Below are positions 12,605-22,592 of a DNA stretch of 42,485 bases, piece after piece; positions within the stretch are counted from its first letter, which is position 1; each line of letters begins with the position of its first letter. Made by a program: the position numbers and the translations under genes. Under the pieces are notes generated by a model that was not told the origin of the DNA, made no database searches, and saw only the letters and a program-made list of their open reading frames with translations. Source of the stretch: an uncultured Flavobacteriaceae bacterium (GTDB lineage: Bacteria > Bacteroidota > Bacteroidia > Flavobacteriales > Flavobacteriaceae); NCBI GenBank assembly GCA_938010765.1, contig CALLVX010000044.1:1-42485 (forward strand), written 5' to 3'.

Positions 12605-12640
12605 AAGGATTCCTAGCTTCATGGGAATGACTTTCACTTA

Positions 12641-12972
12641 AAAAAGCAGGCCAATAAGCCGGATCCTGTACACCTCGAAATACATCGGGGCTCCTTATCA
12701 TTTATCTAGACCTTTAGTTACCCAAAGGTTCGAACCGCCTACCCTTCGATTCGGGCGTGCAGCCCTCAAACACCGATTTACGTGACGTTTCACCGTATAG
12801 AGTTTACCTGGTTTCACTACAGCCGAACTGTACTTGCTTTCTGTTGCACTGGTCCTTTTCCATCCTAATAGAAATTAAAATGGAACGACGGGCGTTACCC
12901 GCTATACTGCACTATGGTGTCCGGACTTTCCTCTCTGACGTTCACCGCCAGAGCGATAAGGTAGCCTGCTTA
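12641..12972 (-). ncRNA. rnpB: RNase P RNA, bacterial type A
   Basis: On the minus strand the 5' end (about 12972) reads TAAGCAGGCTACC and the 3' end reads GGCCTGCTTTTT; AAGCAGGC and GCCTGCTT form helix P1. The conserved core segments are present: GAGAGGAAAGTCCGGACACCA near 12938-12918 (P3/P4 region and CRI), GCAGTATAGCGGGTAAC, and near the 3' end the pattern ACAGGATCCGGCTTAT. The length is about 330 nt. The RNA is the catalytic subunit that removes tRNA 5' leaders. It runs opposite to its neighbours, with a short T run after P1 and a -7 promoter box just upstream. A 79-codon plus-strand frame across it is spurious. Confidence 0.93.
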
Positions 12973-13094: not shown

Positions 13095-15110
13095 TTGGAA
13101 CCATTTATCGTATCGGCACGTAAGTACAGACCCCAGACGTTTAAAGACGTGGTGGGACAAGAAGCGATTACCAATACGTTAACGAACGCTATTGAACACA
13201 ACCACTTGGCACAAGCACTCTTGTTTTGTGGCCCGAGAGGCGTAGGGAAGACCACATGCGCCCGAATTCTGGCGAAGAAGATAAACGAAGATGGTTCGCA
13301 CAGGCCCGATGAAGATTTTGCCTTTAATATTTTTGAGCTCGATGCGGCCTCCAACAACTCGGTAGACGATATTCGGAACCTCATTGATCAAGTACGTATA
13401 CCTCCCCAGGTAGGGAAATATAAGGTGTATATTATTGACGAGGTGCACATGCTCTCGCAATCGGCTTTCAATGCGTTTTTGAAGACTTTGGAAGAGCCCC
13501 CAAAACACGCAATTTTTATTTTGGCGACCACCGAGAAGCATAAAATCATACCCACTATTCTCTCGCGTTGCCAAATTTTTGATTTCAAACGAATTACCGT
13601 TAAGGATGCAGCCAATTACTTAAAATACATTGCCGAAAACCAGGGAATCGACGCAGAAGATGACGCCTTGCACGTCATCGCCCAAAAGGCAGATGGGGCT
13701 ATGCGAGATGCGCTATCTATTTTTGATCGGGTGGTTAGCTTTTCTGGAAAACAACTCACTAGGAAAGCGGTGACCGAGAATTTAAATGTATTGGATTACG
13801 ACACTTACTTCTCAGCCACCGATCTTATTTTATCGCATGACATTCCATCGCTCTTGTTACTATTAAATAAAACCTTGTCACTTGGTTTTGACGGCCACCA
13901 CTTTATCAGTGGCCTCGCCTCTCATTTTAGGGACCTGCTGGTTTGCCAACACCAAGGAACTATTTCGCTCTTAGAGGTTGGTGATACTGCCAAACAAAGC
14001 TATTTAGAGCAATCAAAGATAACCAGTAGCTCCTTTTTGATAAGGGCCTTGGATATGGCCAATGACTGTGATTTGAAATATAAAACAAGTAAGAATCAAC
14101 GTTTGCTTGTTGAACTTACCTTGATGAAGTTGGCCTCTCTCGATTTTGAGGGAGAAAAAAAAAATCCTGAATCGATAGCCCTGGCCAATAAAACAGTTGA
14201 TTTCATTGCGCCCGCCTCTTTTTACAAAGATAAAAAAGGCATTTTACCCGCTGCTACAGAAGCACCGAAAGCAGCTTCTAAAACTCCCTTAATACCTGCC
14301 GAGACCAACACGCCCTCAATAACATCTGAACCGGCCATTGTAGTACTCCCTGCCGAAAAAACAGCCATAGTTCAAAAGGATACCTTGGAAACACCAATGC
14401 CCACCTCAAATTCGGCGGAAACGGCGGTTGCAGCAGATCCTGTAATAAAACCCATTGTAGAACAAATAACAACTACTAATCAGGAACTGACTATTACAGC
14501 TACTCTTGATAGCTCGCCACCGTTAGAAGATCCCATCGTTGAAACAAACGCTGTGGTAGAACCTGCGGTGGCACAAACACCACAAGAGGAAATAACAACT
14601 AATCAAAAACCCGCTGCAGCGACAACTTTAGCACCCAAGACACCCTCTAAAAGAGTATCGGGCCTGTCTATTTCTAGTCTTAAGGCTAAAAAAGAGCATC
14701 AACTTCAAAAAAAAGATGATGTTATCGACCAAGAAAATTTACCTAGGGCACCCTTTACAGAGGAGGTCATGCAAAAACACTGGGACGAATTCGTAAAAAC
14801 GATTGATGCTAAAGGACAGAAAATATTAGCTTCTAACTTAGCTACAGATGTTCCTAAACTGCTAAAGGATCATGTTATCTGGATCGAACTTCCAAATGGC
14901 ACTATGAAAAAAGAGGTGGAACGCGAACAGTTCGACCTTATGGAGCACCTTAGGGCAAATTTAAACAACCGGTTTATTGAACTGAAGATAACTGTGAACG
15001 AAGAAACTGCTAAAAAGTTTGCTTTCACACCAGAGGAAAAATATGAAAAACTACGGGAAAAGAACCCGGCTATCGACCTATTGAGAAAAGAGTTCGACCT
15101 AGACCTTTGA
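13095..15110 (+). CDS. dnaX: DNA polymerase III subunits gamma/tau
   Basis: Protein of 671 residues starting at TTG 13095 (MEPFIVSARKYRPQTF). An in-frame TAA at 13077 and no ATG in between leave TTG as the only sensible start. Walker A is GPRGVGKTT (46-54), Walker B DEVH (115-118) and the arginine-finger motif SRC (157-159). The CxxC zinc module found in E. coli between Walker A and the sensor region is missing: KKINEDGSHRPDEDFAFNIFELDAAS runs straight on, as I recall for other flavobacteria. Residues 1 to about 350 form the AAA+ core and collar. About 360-550 is an Ala/Pro/Thr-rich linker and the remainder a tau-like C-terminal domain. A run of ten A at the core-linker junction could yield a gamma form. 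The stop overlaps the convergent TMEM220 gene by 12 bp. Confidence 0.96.
   Translation: MEPFIVSARKYRPQTFKDVVGQEAITNTLTNAIEHNHLAQALLFCGPRGVGKTTCARILAKKINEDGSHRPDEDFAFNIFELDAASNNSVDDIRNLIDQVRIPPQVGKYKVYIIDEVHMLSQSAFNAFLKTLEEPPKHAIFILATTEKHKIIPTILSRCQIFDFKRITVKDAANYLKYIAENQGIDAEDDALHVIAQKADGAMRDALSIFDRVVSFSGKQLTRKAVTENLNVLDYDTYFSATDLILSHDIPSLLLLLNKTLSLGFDGHHFISGLASHFRDLLVCQHQGTISLLEVGDTAKQSYLEQSKITSSSFLIRALDMANDCDLKYKTSKNQRLLVELTLMKLASLDFEGEKKNPESIALANKTVDFIAPASFYKDKKGILPAATEAPKAASKTPLIPAETNTPSITSEPAIVVLPAEKTAIVQKDTLETPMPTSNSAETAVAADPVIKPIVEQITTTNQELTITATLDSSPPLEDPIVETNAVVEPAVAQTPQEEITTNQKPAAATTLAPKTPSKRVSGLSISSLKAKKEHQLQKKDDVIDQENLPRAPFTEEVMQKHWDEFVKTIDAKGQKILASNLATDVPKLLKDHVIWIELPNGTMKKEVEREQFDLMEHLRANLNNRFIELKITVNEETAKKFAFTPEEKYEKLREKNPAIDLLRKEFDLDL
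14155..14164 (+). other. A10 run in dnaX, candidate slippage site producing gamma
   Basis: Ten consecutive A lie in codons 354-357 (Glu-Lys-Lys-Asn), right after the clamp-loader collar domain. One extra A gives Glu-Lys-Lys-Lys-Ser-stop (TGA); one fewer gives Glu-Lys-Lys-Ile-Leu-Asn-Arg-stop (TAG). Either way a product of about 358-360 residues would result, the expected size of a gamma-like subunit. Thermus thermophilus dnaX makes gamma by transcriptional slippage on A9. The run and stops are seen; function is inferred. Confidence 0.6.
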
Positions 15111-15455
15111 TATAGAAAAGCGTTTTCGTAGACCCAATGTCAGTAACACTATCGAGATGATAAGCAACCCAAAAGCTTCTCTGGCTTCTTCCACATTTTT
15201 AATAGCCCCTTTTCCAATTTCAAAACCTTCGAACTTTTCGGGGTAGCAATAAAAAAAGCCGCCGAGCGCAAACAGCCCTATTATCATCAAAACACCATAA
15301 GACACTTTTTTCAAGGCAAATCCCAAAGCAAGTAGCCCTGCGGCGCACCAAATTAAAATCCAAACAAATGCATCGGGATCATTGTATTGCAGAGCGGCCG
15401 AAACAAAAAAAAGGGCGGCAAAAAGAAATCCAATACTTTTAAAAACTAGGTTCAT
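15099..15455 (-). CDS. TMEM220-like small membrane protein
   Basis: Protein of 118 residues with four predicted membrane helices: about 7-23, 30-48, 53-70 and 92-108. The motif ALQYNDPDAFVWILIW after helix 1 is the hallmark of the TMEM220 family. Function is unknown in bacteria and eukaryotes. It starts 4 bp after the stop of eboF and is almost certainly on the ebo mRNA, which makes it a candidate accessory membrane component of that system. Its 3' end overlaps the convergent dnaX end by 12 bp. Confidence 0.82.
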   Translation of the reverse strand: MNLVFKSIGFLFAALFFVSAALQYNDPDAFVWILIWCAAGLLALGFALKKVSYGVLMIIGLFALGGFFYCYPEKFEGFEIGKGAIKNVEEAREAFGLLIISIVLLTLGLRKRFSISKV

Positions 15456-15459
15456 ACTA

Positions 15460-16833
15460 TCAAGAATTGGTTATTTGCTCTTCTAAAATACGGAATACTT
15501 CGGTTGGTTTCAAATGAGTTTCCTCCATACCTTCACTATCTGTTATAAGAAGAGGATAGTCTTGGGTATCTTCAGGTATTCTTCCGTGGGATCCCTTGAC
15601 CAATTCTGCTTCTAGCGGAATAATATTCATTACCGTTCGAAAGCCCATTTTTTTCTTTAGCAATTTCGCAATAACCTTTGGCATCACCATTTTATCTTTT
15701 GGATCGGTAAGCATTTCTACAGGGTCATAGCCTGGTTTTTTGTGAATATCTACCATGCGCGCATAGTCGGGTGCTTTTACATCATCTAACCAAAAGTAAT
15801 ACGTGAACCATGAATGCGCATCGGCGACCACTACCAGGTCACCGCAACGATCATGTGAGAGCTTGGCTTCCTCCAAAGTGCTATCACATAGTACTTTTTC
15901 TACCCCAACAACTTTTTCAAGCAGCCCTTTCACTTTCATTTTAACCGACTTGTCATTCAGATACACATGTGCGATTTGGTGATCTGCCACTGCAAAAGCT
16001 TTGCTTGCGCCAGCATCTAAAAGTTCTAACCCGCGCTCAATACGAATGCTAAGCAAGCCTTCTTCCCGAAGCATGCGGTTTAGATGAATCGGGCGATTTA
16101 CATTGGTAATGCCATATTCGGATAATAACACCACTTTTGCATTTTGCTTTTGATAATGCAGCACCAACTGTTTCACTACAGCATCGATCTCATTCAAATC
16201 TTTTGAAATAAAATCAAAATTGAGCCCGTGTCGTTGCAAATTGTAATCGAGATGGGGCAGGTAGATCAAGGTTAATGTTGGGTCGTACAATTCATCTGTT
16301 CGAATCGACGCATCGGCAATCCACTTACTTGATTTGATCGAAGTTTTGGGTCCCCAAAATTGAAACAATGGAAAGGTACCCAACTCTTTTTGTAGTGTAT
16401 CTCGTAGGGATGCCGGGTGCGAGTAAATATCCGGTATTTTTCTGCCATCGGCCAAATAGTTAGGGCGCGGCGTTACATTAAAATCTGTACTTGCATACAT
16501 ATTGTACCACCAAAACATATTGGAACAGGTGAAGTTTGCATCTTGCTTTTTTAGCTTTTCCCATAGCTTTTCGCCTTGTACCAATTTGTTAGATTGTCGC
16601 CAAAATTTAACTTCGCATTCGTCTTTAAAATACCAGCCATTCCCTACAATACCATGTTCCTCAGGGTATTTCCCTGTAAGGTAGGTTGATTGCGCCGCAC
16701 AGGTAACCGCAGGTAAGACCGGAATAATATATGCGAACTTTCCTTTTTCAAGGAACGATTTGATAAAAGGGGTATGTTCCCCTATCAAACGCTTGGTTAA
16801 ACCTACTACATTAATTACTACTGTTTTTTGCAT
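15460..16833 (-). CDS. eboF: EboF, alkaline-phosphatase/NPP-fold protein
   Basis: Protein of 457 residues with the nucleotide pyrophosphatase/phosphodiesterase fold. PAVTCAAQSTYLTGKYPEEH with nucleophile position Thr44 and HGIVGN are clear, as are LPHLDYNLQRHG (Asp196, His202) and KGSHGR (His416). Against standard NPP enzymes, the first metal Asp (IDG) is replaced by Val10-Gly11 (NVVGL) and the DHG motif by Glu239-Tyr240-Gly (SEYG). One metal site therefore appears lost. No signal peptide is seen, so it should be cytoplasmic. It lies 6 bp after eboE. In ebo clusters this is the usual sixth gene. Hydrolytic activity is doubtful; a different chemistry or a binding role is possible. Confidence 0.85.
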   Translation of the reverse strand: MQKTVVINVVGLTKRLIGEHTPFIKSFLEKGKFAYIIPVLPAVTCAAQSTYLTGKYPEEHGIVGNGWYFKDECEVKFWRQSNKLVQGEKLWEKLKKQDANFTCSNMFWWYNMYASTDFNVTPRPNYLADGRKIPDIYSHPASLRDTLQKELGTFPLFQFWGPKTSIKSSKWIADASIRTDELYDPTLTLIYLPHLDYNLQRHGLNFDFISKDLNEIDAVVKQLVLHYQKQNAKVVLLSEYGITNVNRPIHLNRMLREEGLLSIRIERGLELLDAGASKAFAVADHQIAHVYLNDKSVKMKVKGLLEKVVGVEKVLCDSTLEEAKLSHDRCGDLVVVADAHSWFTYYFWLDDVKAPDYARMVDIHKKPGYDPVEMLTDPKDKMVMPKVIAKLLKKKMGFRTVMNIIPLEAELVKGSHGRIPEDTQDYPLLITDSEGMEETHLKPTEVFRILEEQITNS

Positions 16834-16839
16834 GGCAAT

Positions 16840-18033
16840 TTATAGTCTGTCTTTTAGCCAGTCGATTTCACGAACGATCGAATCGGATAATTCCCTTTTC
16901 AATCCTTTCGGAAGCACATCCCAGGTATAGGTCTCTATTTCTAAATGCTCGGAAACGGGTTGGTTCTTCAATTCTTCAACGACCTTTAGTATGTGGTCTT
17001 GGGTAGAAAACAATTGATCGAACTTTTCAAGAAAAATCGGCACATGAAAATGTGCCCGTAGTTCTGTGAATTTTTTTTGTTCCTTTAGTACAATCGGTAA
17101 ATCATTATAAGTCTTCACCATTCCGCCGACCTGTTCTGTCACCTGATGCAAGTAGGTAGGTTCATCGAATTTGGCAAGCGCTTCCCAAATTGCGGCTTCT
17201 TTCTCCTCATTGTACAAGATTTTTAAGGCGGCACTCACCTGAATTTTTCCAATATTTATATTGGCATCGGCAAATTTTTGAAAGGTATGCAACGGCTCTT
17301 CATAGGCCAATGAAAAATGGCAGATATCGTAGCAAACGGTTATATGTTTTTTAATGAGTTCGATTGCTTGCCGCTCTTCCACATTGCTTTTGTTCCGAAG
17401 AGTTTTCACTGCTATTGGCACCAAATACGTTTCAAAAAAAGTCAGCACCTCATCACTATTTTCCAATAAGCCATCAGGTTCGGGCTCTATATCTAAATGG
17501 AGGTATTTGCCGGTGGATGCTTCTATTTCTTTTAATTGCAATACAACTTCTGCCAACTGCTCGGCTCCCTTTTCAAAGGCTTTTTGCTTTAAAGCTTCCG
17601 TGTCATGCCAGTATTTGTAACTAATAGGGGAGGTAGAAATACCTCCTGACATTCCCTCAGGAAGTAATTGTGCCAGCTGCCCGAACAAACGTTGGGTATA
17701 CACCAGTCTTTCTGAAGTTGTCCAGTCGGGAGCATGTACCTTATCTTTTACACGCTCATCATGGAAATTTCCATATGGAAAGCCGTTCATTGTAAACACG
17801 TATAGATCGTGTTTCGAAAGCCACTTTTTGAATTCCGCAAAATTAGCACCTTCATTTAGTTCTTCGCTGGCTTTGTTGGATAAGCGCAATCCCAACCCAA
17901 AAGGCACCTCGGGAGCTACCCGTTCCTTTATACCGGGAACATATTCTTGAAGGCTATTGAACGTATGCTCCCAGTCAGAACCGGGATGAATGTTCGTGCA
18001 GTAAGTTAGTTGAAAAGTGTCTTTAATTTTCAT
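16840..18033 (-). CDS. eboE: EboE, sugar-phosphate isomerase/epimerase-like TIM barrel
   Basis: Protein of 397 residues. The N-terminal LTYCTNIHPGSDWEHTFNSL is the usual opening of EboE proteins. Internal features fit a xylose-isomerase-like TIM barrel: YVFTMNGFPYGNFH (residues about 73-86), LDIEPEPDG (about 199-207), and CYDICHFSLAYEEP (about 235-248), where Asp/His/Glu residues could bind a divalent metal. It has no signal peptide. The start overlaps the eboD stop by four bases (ATGA). The substrate is unknown; by context it may act on the cyclic or sugar product of EboD. Confidence 0.88.
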   Translation of the reverse strand: MKIKDTFQLTYCTNIHPGSDWEHTFNSLQEYVPGIKERVAPEVPFGLGLRLSNKASEELNEGANFAEFKKWLSKHDLYVFTMNGFPYGNFHDERVKDKVHAPDWTTSERLVYTQRLFGQLAQLLPEGMSGGISTSPISYKYWHDTEALKQKAFEKGAEQLAEVVLQLKEIEASTGKYLHLDIEPEPDGLLENSDEVLTFFETYLVPIAVKTLRNKSNVEERQAIELIKKHITVCYDICHFSLAYEEPLHTFQKFADANINIGKIQVSAALKILYNEEKEAAIWEALAKFDEPTYLHQVTEQVGGMVKTYNDLPIVLKEQKKFTELRAHFHVPIFLEKFDQLFSTQDHILKVVEELKNQPVSEHLEIETYTWDVLPKGLKRELSDSIVREIDWLKDRL

Positions 18034-19187
18034 TTGCAGTGCTCGTTCAAAGTCTCAATTGCTTGCTTCATCAAACTGTTATCAATAGAATTAACATCGT
18101 GTTTTGATCCTAATGCATCGATGAGAGTAATGCAAAGCTCCCCTCCTAGATGTTCTCTAAATTCCTGGATTCCCTCTAACAGCATATCCATATCTTTATC
18201 GGTTCGAACGGGAATACATAGATCAAAACCGATGGTCACAAATACTTTTAAAATACGGTTAAGAACCGTCTCTGGGATAAGACCTACTAATTTCGAATAG
18301 GTAACATCCAAGGCAATTCCCTTGGCCACTGCTTCGCCATGTCGCAAGCTATAGCCAGTCATTTGTTCCATCTTATGGGCGGCCCAATGCCCAAAATCCA
18401 AGGGTCTGGAAGAACCACTTTCGAATGGGTCTCCACCTTTCGCAATATGCTCCATATGCATTTCGGCACATTTGTAGATTACATATTGCATGGTCTCCAT
18501 GTCTCTATCCTTAAGCTTTAGCGCATTGGTTTCTATGTACTCAAAAAAAGAAAAGTCTTTTATTAGGGCTACTTTTAAAGCTTCGGAAACGCCCGATATC
18601 CAATCGACTTGCTTAAGTGTGGTCAAAAAATGACGGTCGTTTATAATCGCATACGGAGGGGAAAATGTGCCCAAAAAATTCTTTTTCCTAAAGGTGTTTA
18701 TACTGTTCTTTACGCCCACCGCAGAATCGTTCTGAGAAAGTACGGTTGTGGGAATGCGTAGTAGTTTAACACCTCTATGGGCAATAGCCGCGGCATAGCC
18801 GACCATGTCTATTACTGCGCCGCCGCCAATGCATATAACAAAGGAATGCCGATCGATATGTTCTTCGTTCACTCCCTGCAGTACACGATTTACCTGCTCA
18901 TAATCGTTCTTACAGCGCTCCCCTCCCGGTACAAGAATGCTGGTAGTGTATACCACATTTTGGGAATAATGCGCACAGTACGATGCAATGTGCGAGATTA
19001 AATCTGGATGAAAATCGGCTACACCTTGATCTACTACGAACAACAACTTAACAGCTCCGTTCTTTTTATAGGTGTTCAAAACATCCTTGAAGAGCGGGTT
19101 CCGAATATCAAAAAGATGTTCTGTAAAATGTAGCTTATATTCATAAGCAACCGAAAAAGTTTGTTCTATAGGTTTTAATTGCATCAA
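18030..19187 (-). CDS. eboD: EboD, 3-dehydroquinate synthase-like sugar-phosphate cyclase
   Basis: Protein of 385 residues. The NAD loop GGGAVID is at 121-127, PTTVLSQNDSAVGVKN at 146-161 follows the cyclase pattern, and metal ligands line up as Glu202, His267 and His283, with the catalytic His271 (GHWAAHKME, LRHGEAV). These residues are intact, so an active cyclase is likely. A second gene type, aroB, would serve the shikimate pathway; this copy belongs to the ebo group, whose substrate is not settled. Relatives such as 2-epi-5-epi-valiolone synthase make cyclitols. It lies 6 bp after eboC. Confidence 0.9.
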   Translation of the reverse strand: MMQLKPIEQTFSVAYEYKLHFTEHLFDIRNPLFKDVLNTYKKNGAVKLLFVVDQGVADFHPDLISHIASYCAHYSQNVVYTTSILVPGGERCKNDYEQVNRVLQGVNEEHIDRHSFVICIGGGAVIDMVGYAAAIAHRGVKLLRIPTTVLSQNDSAVGVKNSINTFRKKNFLGTFSPPYAIINDRHFLTTLKQVDWISGVSEALKVALIKDFSFFEYIETNALKLKDRDMETMQYVIYKCAEMHMEHIAKGGDPFESGSSRPLDFGHWAAHKMEQMTGYSLRHGEAVAKGIALDVTYSKLVGLIPETVLNRILKVFVTIGFDLCIPVRTDKDMDMLLEGIQEFREHLGGELCITLIDALGSKHDVNSIDNSLMKQAIETLNEHCK

Positions 19188-19193
19188 TATAAC

Positions 19194-20084
19194 TTAAGTA
19201 ACGGCAAACAACTTTGATAACAGCATTGATAAGGGTAGTAGCAATAAAATTAGTAATCCGTACCACCAAAACGAAAAACCAACGGCTATCGAAGCATCTA
19301 GTACAATTAGCGATAATACGCCTGCTATTACTGCCTTTTTAATGTTTCCGGGCGTATTTGCCTTATATGCATTTAGTAAGGGCCTATATATTAAAAAGAC
19401 AAAAAGTCCTAAAAAGGGTATACTTTCCAAATAACTGCCTGAACTATACATATGTATACCAAGAACGCCAAAAATGACCAAAGCATATAATACCCCTGCC
19501 CAAATCAAATGTTTTTTGTTGTTCCCGTGTACTTCTCCCCTGCTGATCATTGTAATTGCATAAATGTACAGCAAAGGAATAAAAGCATACTCCCAACCAT
19601 TGAACGTACCTAAAATGGTAATCCCCAGCAGTAAATTAGCACTTCTACAAAGCCCCATATTAAAGGGGCCTAAAAAGTCATATTTCTTTGAGAAGCCATC
19701 ATATGAAACAATCAAAGTAGCCAAAATCACCCCCACTAAGCCGCAAATAGGGCGAACATAGCATGCGAGAACTACACCTAACAACAATAATAATACGCCA
19801 AATATGGTTGCCGACCTGCGGGAGATCAATCCACTGGGGATCGGTCGTTCCGGCCTTTCTAGCTGGTCTAACTTAAAATCGAACACGTCGTTTAAAACGA
19901 CGCCGCCCGCATACATGCAAACCGACGCAAGTACTAATACGCCCACCGAAATTAAAAGTGCATTCGAAAGCTCCTGGCTTTCAAAAATACCTGCTATCGC
20001 TACACCGGCAAAAATATCGGCCGCAGCGGTCGGTAAATTTGCGGGTCGTGCTAGACGCAAATACCCTTTCAGTACTGCATTCAT
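19194..20084 (-). CDS. eboC: EboC, UbiA-family prenyltransferase
   Basis: Protein of 296 residues with eight to nine membrane helices. The first Asp-rich motif NDVFDFKLD (65-73) is followed by RPERPIPSG, and the second by DGFSKKYDFLGP (129-140), both needed for Mg-diphosphate binding in UbiA enzymes. It should attach a polyprenyl or similar chain to an acceptor at the inner membrane. Its start overlaps the eboB stop by one base. Context suggests the acceptor is made or held by the other Ebo proteins; it is not one of the quinone or heme prenyltransferases by neighbourhood. Confidence 0.9.
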   Translation of the reverse strand: MNAVLKGYLRLARPANLPTAAADIFAGVAIAGIFESQELSNALLISVGVLVLASVCMYAGGVVLNDVFDFKLDQLERPERPIPSGLISRRSATIFGVLLLLLGVVLACYVRPICGLVGVILATLIVSYDGFSKKYDFLGPFNMGLCRSANLLLGITILGTFNGWEYAFIPLLYIYAITMISRGEVHGNNKKHLIWAGVLYALVIFGVLGIHMYSSGSYLESIPFLGLFVFLIYRPLLNAYKANTPGNIKKAVIAGVLSLIVLDASIAVGFSFWWYGLLILLLLPLSMLLSKLFAVT

Positions 20085-20992
20085 TATACGATCTTATCAG
20101 AGTCTATCTTGGGTTCTTGTCCCCTAAGCACACTATTGTCGTTGAAGAGCTGTGTTTGATTAACTCCCTTGGGGTTCAACCAGTCCGTTTCCTTCATTTT
20201 GCCGTTTTTACCAAAAATATCAAGCGCATTTTGGTAACAGGTTTTTACCACATCTGCTTTTGCAATTCCACTTCTGAGCATTAAACCTGCTGTTTTTGGA
20301 ACTGCCAATGGGTCACTGACCCCCCAATCGGCGGAACTATCTACTATAATGTTATGACTACCATATGTTCGCACAACCTCGACCATGCGTTCATTCCCCA
20401 TCTTTGTCTTGGGATAAATCGTAAATGCTGCAATAAAACCACGTTCCAAAACTTCTTGTACCGTTTCTTCATTATTGTGGTCAATTACCACCATCGATGG
20501 GTCAAGACCATGCTCTAAGCAGACCTCCATACTTTTAATCGTTCCTGCTTTCTTATCACGGTGCGGCGTGTGAACCTGTACGACCATCCCCAGTTCTTTT
20601 GCCATTTCCAATTGCATACGAAAGTATTTGTCTTCCGCTGGGGTTTGGTCATCATAGCCTATTTCACCTATGGCTACCACATTTTCTTTATGCACGTACA
20701 AAGGCAATAATTCTATTACCTGTTCTGCCAAGGCCTCATTGTTCGCTTCCTTGGAGTTTAAACCGATTGTACAATAATGCTTAATTCCAAACTGGCTCGC
20801 ACGAAAAGGTTCCCAACCCACAAGACTGCTATAGTAATCTTGAAAAGAACCTACTTGGGTTCTTGGTTGCCCTAACCAAAAGGAAGGTTCTATAATCGCA
20901 ACTACGCCGGCTTCGGCCATGGCTTCATAATCGTCTGTGGTACGCGATGTCATATGTACATGCGGATCAATAAATAGTAGTTTATCTTCCAT
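20084..20992 (-). CDS. eboB: EboB, TatD-like metal-dependent hydrolase
   Basis: Protein of 302 residues. It has the amidohydrolase/TatD start FIDPHVHM with His11 and His13, a Glu-containing strand AIGEIGYDD (about 107-115), VQVHTPHRD (about 138-146), VIDHNNEET (about 173-181) and a late Asp in VDSSADWGVSD, giving a complete set of candidate metal ligands. The family hydrolyses phosphoesters or C-N bonds, and the EboB substrate is unknown. The 11-bp overlap with eboA and the one-base overlap with eboC show co-translation. Confidence 0.88.
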   Translation of the reverse strand: MEDKLLFIDPHVHMTSRTTDDYEAMAEAGVVAIIEPSFWLGQPRTQVGSFQDYYSSLVGWEPFRASQFGIKHYCTIGLNSKEANNEALAEQVIELLPLYVHKENVVAIGEIGYDDQTPAEDKYFRMQLEMAKELGMVVQVHTPHRDKKAGTIKSMEVCLEHGLDPSMVVIDHNNEETVQEVLERGFIAAFTIYPKTKMGNERMVEVVRTYGSHNIIVDSSADWGVSDPLAVPKTAGLMLRSGIAKADVVKTCYQNALDIFGKNGKMKETDWLNPKGVNQTQLFNDNSVLRGQEPKIDSDKIV

Positions 20993-21851
20993 TGTTATTT
21001 TTTATAATTCCCCATGTAACGGCCCCTGTTTGAAGCTGTTCTAACATATCGGGATAGTTGTTGAGTAATTCCTGAGCTGCAACGTTTTTCGAAGCAAAAC
21101 AACATAAGCCGCCAGCTTTATTCTCTGTACTATCAGTACTCTCTAACAGTCGTTGCATATCGTTTAAAAGGGCTTGGTCTAAAAAATTGGCCACCGGTCT
21201 CCAGAAAAGAGGGTCTATCGTCCTAGAGGCTGCCCATCGTTCATGTGCATAATCTGAAATAATTCGCGCCAACTCCTTGTTCGCTCGTTCATCAACTTGC
21301 AAAATAGCGGACAAATCCCTTTCCATAAAAGCCGCTTTTAAATACATTTGATTCCATTGCTGCTCGTTAAAAAAAGCTGCAGGATAATGGTTATGGGCAC
21401 TGATTGCATCAAAAACCGTCGCAATATTTGTTCGTAGCGCTTCTACGGCAACCTGTTTATAGTTCTCGGCATTTGGCAAGAGTATTAAATACTTTAAAAA
21501 AGTAATCATCTCGCCGGTATCGGCCACCTGAATAATGTTAGCCACCTTGGGTTCGAAAAATGAGCTATTTACTTCCAAAACCCTCGACAGCAGATAAATT
21601 CTTCCAACTTCAAGTGTGGTTGCTTTTTGACTTTTCAAATAGATTGCCAAAACATTATTCCCTAATTGAGCAACACCAGTTTCGATCGGTGCTATCTTAC
21701 TTGCCAACAAGCTATACGTTAGGTAAAGATCTTTCGTGGAAGTAGTTTTGCAAATTAACTCAATTTTCTCTTGTAGCCAGCCAATTACTGTACTATCCAA
21801 GTTATGTTGCAATACAATTTCAAGATTTCGGGTACTATTGGTAAACTCCAT
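20982..21851 (-). CDS. eboA: EboA family protein
   Basis: Protein of 289 residues, mostly helical, with no signal peptide or membrane segment. Segments such as LTYSLLASKIAP, ERDLSAILQVDERANKELARI and SDYAHERWAASRTIDPLFWRP are typical of EboA, the first gene of ebo clusters. No catalytic motif can be recognised; it might be a scaffold or carrier. It opens the seven-gene unit. The 159-bp gap to the divergent miaE must hold its promoter, but I see no convincing TAnnTTTG box there. Confidence 0.85.
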   Translation of the reverse strand: MEFTNSTRNLEIVLQHNLDSTVIGWLQEKIELICKTTSTKDLYLTYSLLASKIAPIETGVAQLGNNVLAIYLKSQKATTLEVGRIYLLSRVLEVNSSFFEPKVANIIQVADTGEMITFLKYLILLPNAENYKQVAVEALRTNIATVFDAISAHNHYPAAFFNEQQWNQMYLKAAFMERDLSAILQVDERANKELARIISDYAHERWAASRTIDPLFWRPVANFLDQALLNDMQRLLESTDSTENKAGGLCCFASKNVAAQELLNNYPDMLEQLQTGAVTWGIIKNNNGR

Positions 21852-22010
21852 AGGTAGTAATCTAATTTACCCTTGATTTTCAAGTATTTAGCTACTTGTT
21901 GATGGCTAGATTTTACAAAATTAAATATAATAAGGGAAACCAAGAGATTTTAGCGTGCAAATTACCAATGAGCATCTAAAAGATTCTTCCTAATTTTACA
22001 AAAAAAAAGT

Positions 22011-22592
22011 ATGCTGGGCCTAAAGCTACCTACCGACCCAAGATGGACACATCTTGCCGAGAAAAATATTGATGAGATTTTGACCGATCATGCCCACTGT
22101 GAGCAAAAGGCGGCAAGCACGGCAATTTCATTGATTGTGAGTTTTCCCGAGTATACTGATCTGGTTACTGAAATGATCGCCCTCTCTAGGGAAGAAATGG
22201 GGCATTTTAAGATGGTGCATGACCGAATTCTGGCCCGTGGGAAGACACTTGGCCAGCACCGAAAAGACGACTATGTTATAGCATTGACGAAATTTTTCCC
22301 AAAAGGGGGAAGCAGAACTACCCAATTGGTACATCGCCTTTTATATGCCGCATTAATAGAAGCTCGTAGTTGTGAACGTTTTCGTTTGCTTTCAGAAGCT
22401 TTAAAAGACAAGGATTTGGCCGAATTTTATCACAAACTAATGGTCAGTGAAGCTGGACATTATACAATGTTCCTAACGTTTGCCCGGCAATATGGCAACA
22501 AGGCGGAAGTTGATAAAAAGTGGCAGGCCCTGCTAGAATTCGAGGCAGAAATCATGAAAGGTTTAAGTAATAAAGAAACGATTCATGGGTAG
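22011..22592 (+). CDS. miaE: tRNA-(ms2io6A)-hydroxylase
   Basis: Protein of 193 residues, the usual length. It carries the carboxylate-bridged diiron ligands of MiaE: Glu31 (HCEQKAA), Glu62-Met-Gly-His65, Glu117 (EARSCERF) and Glu147-Ala-Gly-His150. It hydroxylates the isopentenyl group of modified A37 in tRNA, using O2. It is a stand-alone gene, divergent from the ebo operon and ending 12 bp from the convergent ppx. Confidence 0.93.
   Translation: MLGLKLPTDPRWTHLAEKNIDEILTDHAHCEQKAASTAISLIVSFPEYTDLVTEMIALSREEMGHFKMVHDRILARGKTLGQHRKDDYVIALTKFFPKGGSRTTQLVHRLLYAALIEARSCERFRLLSEALKDKDLAEFYHKLMVSEAGHYTMFLTFARQYGNKAEVDKKWQALLEFEAEIMKGLSNKETIHG

Follow-up and report, generated by a model that had tools for sequence, protein, structure and literature searches.

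Does the small membrane-protein gene at the end of an ebo operon belong to that operon, and what might its product do there? The question is raised by a stretch of 42,485 nucleotides from an uncultured Flavobacteriaceae bacterium (contig CALLVX010000044.1; the window, below, is this whole stretch), in which six ebo genes are followed by a gene of the TMEM220 family. A preliminary description, made from the sequence alone, had reported a complete eboABCDEF set in canonical order with spacings of 11 bp or less, and had suggested that the downstream membrane protein might be a new component. Open reading frame (ORF) coordinates and profile matches bear out the first claim: the window holds a true ebo operon of the Bacteroidota type, the operon itself being already known. 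As to the second, we conclude that TMEM220 is very probably a functional partner of ebo in Bacteroidota. All seven genes lie on the minus strand, with lengths given in amino acids (aa):

20982-21851, minus strand: eboA, all-helical protein, 289 aa (NF035938, 144 bits, cut-off 50)
20084-20992, minus strand: eboB, TatD-like metal hydrolase, 302 aa (PF01026, 64 bits)
19194-20084, minus strand: eboC, UbiA-like intramembrane prenyltransferase, 296 aa (NF035940, 374.6 bits, cut-off 250)
18030-19187, minus strand: eboD, sugar phosphate cyclase, 385 aa (PF01761 and PF24621)
16840-18033, minus strand: eboE, xylose-isomerase-like TIM barrel, 397 aa (NF035939, 489.9 bits, cut-off 250)
15460-16833, minus strand: eboF, alkaline-phosphatase-fold protein with an altered metal site, 457 aa (PF01663, E 1.9e-62, 212.3 bits, cut-off 23)
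15099-15455, minus strand: the seventh gene, a TMEM220-family four-helix membrane protein, 118 aa (PF15071, 59.5 bits, cut-off 27)

Adjacent genes overlap by 11 bp (A/B), 1 bp (B/C) and 4 bp (D/E) or are separated by 6 bp (C/D and E/F) and 4 bp (F/TMEM220); the listed start of eboD is a TTG at 19187, and the likelier ATG at 19184 would widen the C/D gap to 9 bp. The PF15071 match spans profile positions 1-97 of 100, and the genome (86.9% complete) holds one TMEM220 copy. EboA scored 153.4 bits against the narrower family model NF035937, under its cut-off of 320. All six ebo genes lay within the retrieved stretch at 69 of 80 named EboE loci (those most similar to the window among 585), several of the others being short contigs, and the six-gene grouping is therefore not a matter of chance.

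We surveyed 395 Bacteroidota genomes, with EboE in 31 and TMEM220 in 50 (49 over the cut-off), and 199 Flavobacteriaceae genomes from 198 genera. The presence of ebo was scored by EboE alone, and EboE-negative genomes may hold other ebo genes; the counts take in two TMEM220 matches under the curated cut-off (genomes G085 and G470). Across the phylum, TMEM220 was found in 24 of 31 EboE-positive genomes versus 26 of 364 EboE-negative ones (p 1.2e-18, by Fisher tests that, here and below, ignore shared ancestry). The association held at the level of genera (16/19 with EboE versus 15/152 others, p 1.8e-11) and within Flavobacteriaceae (29/31 versus 14/168 genomes, p 5e-22). As a rough control for lifestyle confounding, we divided the phylum sample by miaE: TMEM220 occurred in 13 of 14 EboE-positive versus 15 of 113 EboE-negative genomes where miaE was present, and in 11 of 17 versus 11 of 251 where it was not. 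EboE was not clearly linked to miaE (14/31 versus 113/364, p 0.11).

TMEM220 also tended to lie close to the operon. Arrangement in the 31 Flavobacteriaceae EboE genomes was judged by the distance between the EboE and TMEM220 matches, and the DNA was inspected directly for G000, G130, G182, G395, G411, G414, G441, G501 and G576. By distance, 26 of the 31 had TMEM220 within or next to the operon, at a spacing that fits a place either directly after eboF (22 genomes, 1.41-1.57 kb from EboE) or before eboA (4 genomes, 3.8-4.1 kb); one further genome had it 4.6 kb downstream, two had it on another contig and two were without it. In the phylum sample the figure was 7 of the 24 genomes carrying both. 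Among the named loci, TMEM220 was inside the retrieved stretch in 34 of 80 and elsewhere in the genome in 35, so that 69 of 80 genomes (69/75 minus cyanobacteria) had it somewhere; it was not found in the other 11, namely five cyanobacteria and L183, L192, L193, L195, L208 and L209 (L and a number denote loci, G and a number genomes). TMEM220 is thus not rare near ebo in Bacteroidota; rarity there is what the preliminary description had named as one half of a refutation.

These loci differ in layout. On the same strand, TMEM220 followed eboF in 18 of the 80 named loci and preceded eboA in 9; it was divergent from eboA in 4 (38-593 bp) and convergent with eboF in 3, one of them at 2.2 kb, and a fifth arrangement, TMEM220 before eboE, was seen in G328/L070. 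Such spacings are approximate, ORF calls taking the longest frame, and negative values may reflect overlong starts. On an EboE tree built with FastTree, excluding L094 and rows shorter than 300 aa, the arrangement labels require 14 changes, and the same-strand TMEM220-eboA order alone requires 3, all forced by well supported branches. The TMEM220 tree, built from 129 columns of 99 rows, contains three cases of two long branches joining. Both trees concur that Allomuricauda has two ebo lineages, each with its own TMEM220 in its own position, and in both L163 (TMEM220 before eboA) clusters with Flagellimonas L198 and separately from L150, L151 and L157 (after eboF). A simple artefact of one locus was ruled out, as other arrangements exist. 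It looks as though TMEM220 travels with, or is recruited to, the ebo operon. Two loci from metagenome bins labelled Neomarinimicrobiota and Thalassovita (L153, L203) group with Bacteroidota in the EboE tree and are possibly misbinned.

The window's own locus, in the order dnaX-TMEM220-FEDCBA-miaE, has the following flanks:

13095-15110, plus strand: dnaX, convergent flank (PF13177, synteny)
22011-22592, plus strand: miaE-like gene, divergent flank (PF06175, 151.5 bits, synteny)
21852-22010, no strand: 159 bp intergenic region between the divergent eboA and miaE, presumed promoter region

TMEM220 and the convergent dnaX share 12 bp at the 3' end of dnaX. Upstream of eboA there is a TAATTTTG box whose end is 65 bp from the start of that gene; a scan for Bacteroidetes-type promoter patterns gave 29 matches against 24 expected and did not support the TAATTTTG box, and we therefore claim no promoter. 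Nearby, a bacterial RNase P class A RNA lies at window positions 12639-12972 on the minus strand (RF00010, 188 bits).

This setting suggests another account of the window, in which TMEM220 is a bystander resident at the dnaX-miaE locus and ebo was inserted alongside it in one Flavobacteriaceae lineage. Four loci (L107, L220, L223 and L228) do keep TMEM220 alone at that site, with no ebo gene detected there; they make up 4 of the 13 EboE-negative Flavobacteriaceae TMEM220 loci retrieved, the fourteenth being a weak match outside the sample, and three of them are placed next to the window by the TMEM220 tree. G411, which shares the window's genus, likewise has TMEM220 at the dnaX-miaE site with ebo elsewhere (L229, L230), and the 35 named EboE genomes with TMEM220 elsewhere would also fit. 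Yet TMEM220 is present in 16 of the 19 ebo genera, and it stands beside the operon in four other arrangements, at other loci and on other branches of the EboE tree. In G414, moreover, eboE was the sole ebo gene detected at the dnaX-miaE site and a search of the genome gave no TMEM220, with no search made for further ebo genes at other sites in G414. We consider the bystander account very unlikely. As an observation in its own right, the dnaX-miaE locus in L107, L220, L223, L228, L229 and L234 has ebo absent, moved, or reduced to eboE alone. G501 has no TMEM220 beside its ebo and carries a TMEM220 of the other lineage elsewhere in the genome.

The TMEM220 protein itself was modeled with a pLDDT of 90.4 as four helices (residues 3-25, 29-47, 53-70 and 85-116). 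Across 98 aligned rows, the overlong row L136 having been dropped, no change occurs at N25, D26, W32, E89, R92, E93 or G96; D28 is retained by 95 rows, and 96 have Tyr at position 36, where the window has Trp. All these positions map close to the helix ends on a single face, which is acidic, with 0.16 K+R versus 2.03 D+E per row in the first loop and 1.68 versus 3.09 in the third, and the opposite face is basic (1.79 versus 0.28, 1.68 versus 0.16 and 2.69 versus 0.26). Under the positive-inside rule for membrane protein topology, positively charged segments stay on the cytoplasmic side. Because the opposite face is K/R-rich, the conserved face is predicted to be periplasmic. The TMEM220 profile had no match among PDB sequences at E<=0.1.

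What does the operon make? The strongest clue comes from plasmid-borne ebo loci (47 records, other phyla; 21 retrieved), searched with EboD and with an inositol-3-phosphate synthase (Ino1) profile that was built from six of the same loci, annotated as such in their records. EboD was present and Ino1 absent in all six EboD-type loci (Aureibacter, Deinococcus, Ketogulonicigenium, Salipiger, Mycetohabitans and Azospirillum). The 14 actinobacterial loci had Ino1 in 11, EboD in none and neither in 3, these last being L247 and L257 (stretches with only B, E and F) and L254 (only eboE); Gemmatirosa L244 had Ino1 and no EboD. Together, Ino1 occurred in 12 of 15 actinobacterial and Gemmatirosa loci and EboD in 0 of 15, and no locus had both. 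One Ino1 protein that was scanned had both myo-inositol-1-phosphate synthase domains (PF07994 and PF01658), and Ino1 was not found in the scanned Bacteroidota and cyanobacterial ebo loci. Since unrelated sugar-phosphate cyclases, EboD or Ino1, fill one slot, the product would be a cyclitol, for which this swap is good evidence; the actinobacterial clusters could make a different cyclitol. TMEM220 was not detected within the 21 plasmid stretches, including that of Aureibacter, a Bacteroidota plasmid; a search with the window's TMEM220 gave no match either, a single-sequence query being insensitive.

Several features of the Ino1 clusters are recorded here in their own right. The clusters L243-L246, L248-L253, L255 and L256 show no eboD in the retrieved stretch and carry a further xylose-isomerase-like TIM barrel. 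Genes annotated ScyD/ScyE stand just before Ino1 in the Streptomyces plasmid clusters L243, L249 and L250, which recalls the cyanobacterial scytonemin link. In one of these Streptomyces plasmids (L249 13442-13765), PLSDB predicts tetracycline resistance for a gene whose annotation is a 2Fe-2S protein, which looks like a mislabelling.

The enzymes are consistent with such a pathway to differing degrees. EboD scored 224.9 bits against the aroB model TIGR01357, under its cut-off of 305, and 549.5 bits against NF004852 (cut-off 333), which is also named 3-dehydroquinate synthase. A role as the shikimate enzyme was ruled out, as the window genome has a separate AroB gene (339 bits versus the TIGR01357 cut-off of 305). 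EboD residues were compared through alignments with PDB proteins. D264 is Asn in the dehydroquinate synthases shown and Asp in the cyclase ValA (4p53), H271 is synthase-like, and the invariant F255 aligns with the synthase Lys of the D-E-K-E stretch. EboD thus appears to belong to a separate cyclase class, in agreement with PMC5133447.

In EboB, H11, H13, E110, H141, H172 and D222 are invariant in 107 of 107 rows and D218 varies between Asp and Asn; EboE keeps the tested residues in 115-117 of 117 rows. The UbiA NDxxDxxxD motif of EboC (N65-D66-x2-D69-x3-D73) is invariant in 104 of 104 rows. In one genus (code g153: L084, L086, L088 and L092), eboB and eboD had no detected eboC between them, and it is perhaps absent, moved or missed. 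EboA gave a confident model (pLDDT 94.6), and in a search of PDB sequences neither the EboA profile (E<=0.1) nor the EboE profile (E<=0.01) had a match.

EboF aligns with nucleotide pyrophosphatases, its PF01663 match being at the level of the fold. The usual phosphodiesterase site has six metal ligands (three Asp and three His) and a Thr nucleophile. EboF retains Thr44, Asp196 and His416 and has four of the six ligands replaced (Asp by V10, His by Q200, Asp-His by E239-Y240), and so lacks the full type I set, although the pairwise stretches placing Q200, E239-Y240 and H416 are weak alone (9.1 and -1.9 bits for the later two). All 113 aligned rows have V10, T44, D196, Q200 and Y240, and E239 and H416 each occur in 112; the same ligand pattern recurs in five cyanobacterial EboF proteins and in 19 of 19 aligned plasmid-borne ones from the 21 loci. 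Glu239 may still bind metal, and we read EboF as a changed enzyme rather than a standard phosphodiesterase. H285 and H289 are also invariant. The parts consulted of PMC5133447, PMC6282210, PMC9235831 and PMC6092422 do not describe these ligand changes.

From these elements a pathway can be proposed. EboD would close a phosphorylated sugar into a cyclitol, whose tailoring would fall to EboE (the TIM barrel), EboB (the hydrolase) and the unusual EboF, and the helical EboA would serve as scaffold or accessory subunit; EboC would add a prenyl chain within the membrane, and TMEM220 might receive, flip or modify the prenylated product at the periplasmic side. The data themselves show the structure of the operon, the co-occurrence and the repeated adjacency in differing layouts, the predicted topology, the cyclase swap and the altered EboF ligands; the identity of the product, the order of the steps and the action of TMEM220 are what we infer. 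We lean toward a cyclitol-based prenylated product; that TMEM220 acts on it at the periplasmic face is a step we advance tentatively. Taken whole, the best explanation is a Bacteroidota ebo operon making a prenylated cyclitol lipid, with TMEM220 as a seventh, lineage-specific functional partner acting periplasmically, and on its holding in every part we are evenly divided. A broader version, in which the lipid carries small molecules over the inner membrane, EboD or Ino1 sets the head group, TMEM220 is a dedicated periplasmic-face flippase, receptor or enzyme in Bacteroidota, and the whole family, including the human Golgi protein, acts on prenylated polyol or cyclitol lipids, is a speculation that we think quite improbable.

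Several observations weigh against this explanation. TMEM220 persists in the EboE-negative genomes counted above (26 of 364 in the phylum, 14 of 168 in Flavobacteriaceae), four of them with TMEM220 alone at the dnaX-miaE site, and G411 keeps it there apart from its ebo. Its profile was found in 0 of 117 cyanobacteria (EboE in 4), where ebo works without TMEM220; the controls in that search were also without a match, and the same profile does match in Bacteroidota. Nor was TMEM220 found in a Flavobacterium-type clade with ebo (L193, L209, L235), and plastid and Phycorickettsia ebo operons are reported with six genes (PMC5133447, PMC6092422). MiaE is more frequent with TMEM220 (28/50 versus 99/345, p 2.8e-4), so a lifestyle effect is only partly excluded. 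EboF, a presumed hydrolase, is without most of the usual metal ligands, and neither the EboA nor the TMEM220 model matched a PDB structure at E<=0.001. Nostoc ebo mutants yielded no lipid-conjugated scytonemin monomer (PMC6282210), and the EboC enzymes tested in PMC9235831 farnesylate quinoline carboxylates. Because of the cyanobacterial result and the persistence of TMEM220 without EboE, we take it to be a partner, not a core enzyme. The suggestion of a new component is supported in part: TMEM220 recurs in or near ebo in Bacteroidota and covers only a portion of the ebo range.

The EboC data invite a reading in which the product is a prenylated aromatic, such as a quinoline carboxylate, and TMEM220 aids its export or protects the cell. 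The single EboC activity that we found measured uses aromatic acceptors, with quinoline carboxylic acids as the best ones: the Maribacter, Zobellia and Algoriphagus enzymes farnesylate 8-hydroxyquinoline-2-carboxylic acid, and that of Maribacter also accepts quinaldic acid (PMC9235831). However, 6 of the 14 aromatic acceptors offered in that study served as substrates, the parts of it consulted name no native product, none of the seven operon genes resembles a quinoline-forming enzyme, and a cyclase is the usual partner, whose replacement by Ino1 points to a cyclitol. We consider an aromatic product unlikely. The prenylated cyclitol of the preliminary description gains support from the EboD/Ino1 swap and is as yet unproven.

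TMEM220 might instead act on a broader class of envelope molecules, derived from sugars or cyclitols, with ebo simply the client it meets most often in Bacteroidota. In L095, L122, L124, L125, L127 and L132, where TMEM220 is away from ebo and EboE is elsewhere in the genome, it is preceded at 1-230 bp by a xylose-isomerase-like TIM-barrel gene on the same strand (PF01261 was confirmed for L122 and L132, the others being assigned by clustering), and such a gene also lies 20 bp before it in L217. A TonB-receptor gene precedes TMEM220 in L111, L112, L116 and L126 (Pfam-confirmed for L111 and L126). These neighbors, and the persistence of TMEM220 without EboE, speak for the wider class; the other neighbors away from ebo, among 20 proteins scanned with Pfam, are mixed (IF-2, histidine kinase, H+-pyrophosphatase, aldo-keto reductase), and there is no background rate for PF01261 neighbors. 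We judge this somewhat unlikely, and prefer the partnership with ebo in Bacteroidota. Ebo is widespread, and the cyclase swap, by narrowing its product to the cyclitol class, allows specific assays; the recurring membrane partner is a new knockout target, and its link to ebo gives a bacterial genomic context to a membrane protein family also found in humans.

The operon was named, and an isoprenoid-cyclitol product proposed, in 2016 (PMC5133447). In Nostoc it is needed for scytonemin formation, deletions retaining the scytonemin monomer in the cytoplasm, for which a lipid carrier was proposed, and in Pseudomonas it is linked to nematode deterrence (PMC6282210); Phycorickettsia also carries an ebo operon (PMC6092422). 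The main texts of PMC5133447, PMC6282210, PMC9235831 and PMC6092422 do not mention TMEM220, and those of the first three do not mention inositol. With bioRxiv preprints and most subscription papers outside their scope, our literature searches found nothing pairing TMEM220 with the operon, and no molecular activity or bacterial study for TMEM220, the TMEM220 papers listed dealing, to judge by their titles, with humans or animals; no paper titled on an ebo-inositol synthase pairing was found. To the reach of these searches, the partnership in Bacteroidota and the EboD/Ino1 swap are new.

The window's operon shares its six genes, their ABCDEF order and their families with the ebo operons of eustigmatophyte plastids, Bacteroidetes and Cyanobacteria (PMC5133447), and the window and most sampled Bacteroidota ebo genomes additionally have TMEM220. 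With the Nostoc punctiforme operon (PMC6282210) it has the EboA, B, C, E and F families and a possible role in membrane translocation in common; the window organism, in contrast, is a member of the Flavobacteriaceae, and no TMEM220 was found in the sampled cyanobacteria. UbiA-297 of Maribacter, Zobellia and Algoriphagus is likewise an ebo-cluster EboC with the Asp-rich motif, its activity having been measured on offered aromatic acceptors (PMC9235831). The window's TMEM220 falls over the cut-off of its family, PF15071, whose human member, also treated in liver cancer papers, is reported to be Golgi-resident and needed for normal glycoprotein secretion, its knockdown disturbing Golgi shape and protein secretion (PMC6979480); this loosely fits a membrane secretory role. 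Finally, the actinobacterial clusters (L243 and others), which in the six annotated loci run Ino1, SCO3242-type UbiA, TIM barrel, EboA, EboB, EboE, EboF, share EboA, B, E and F relatives, a UbiA protein and a cyclase with the window, but their cyclase is an inositol-phosphate synthase and no TMEM220 lies within ~7 kb.

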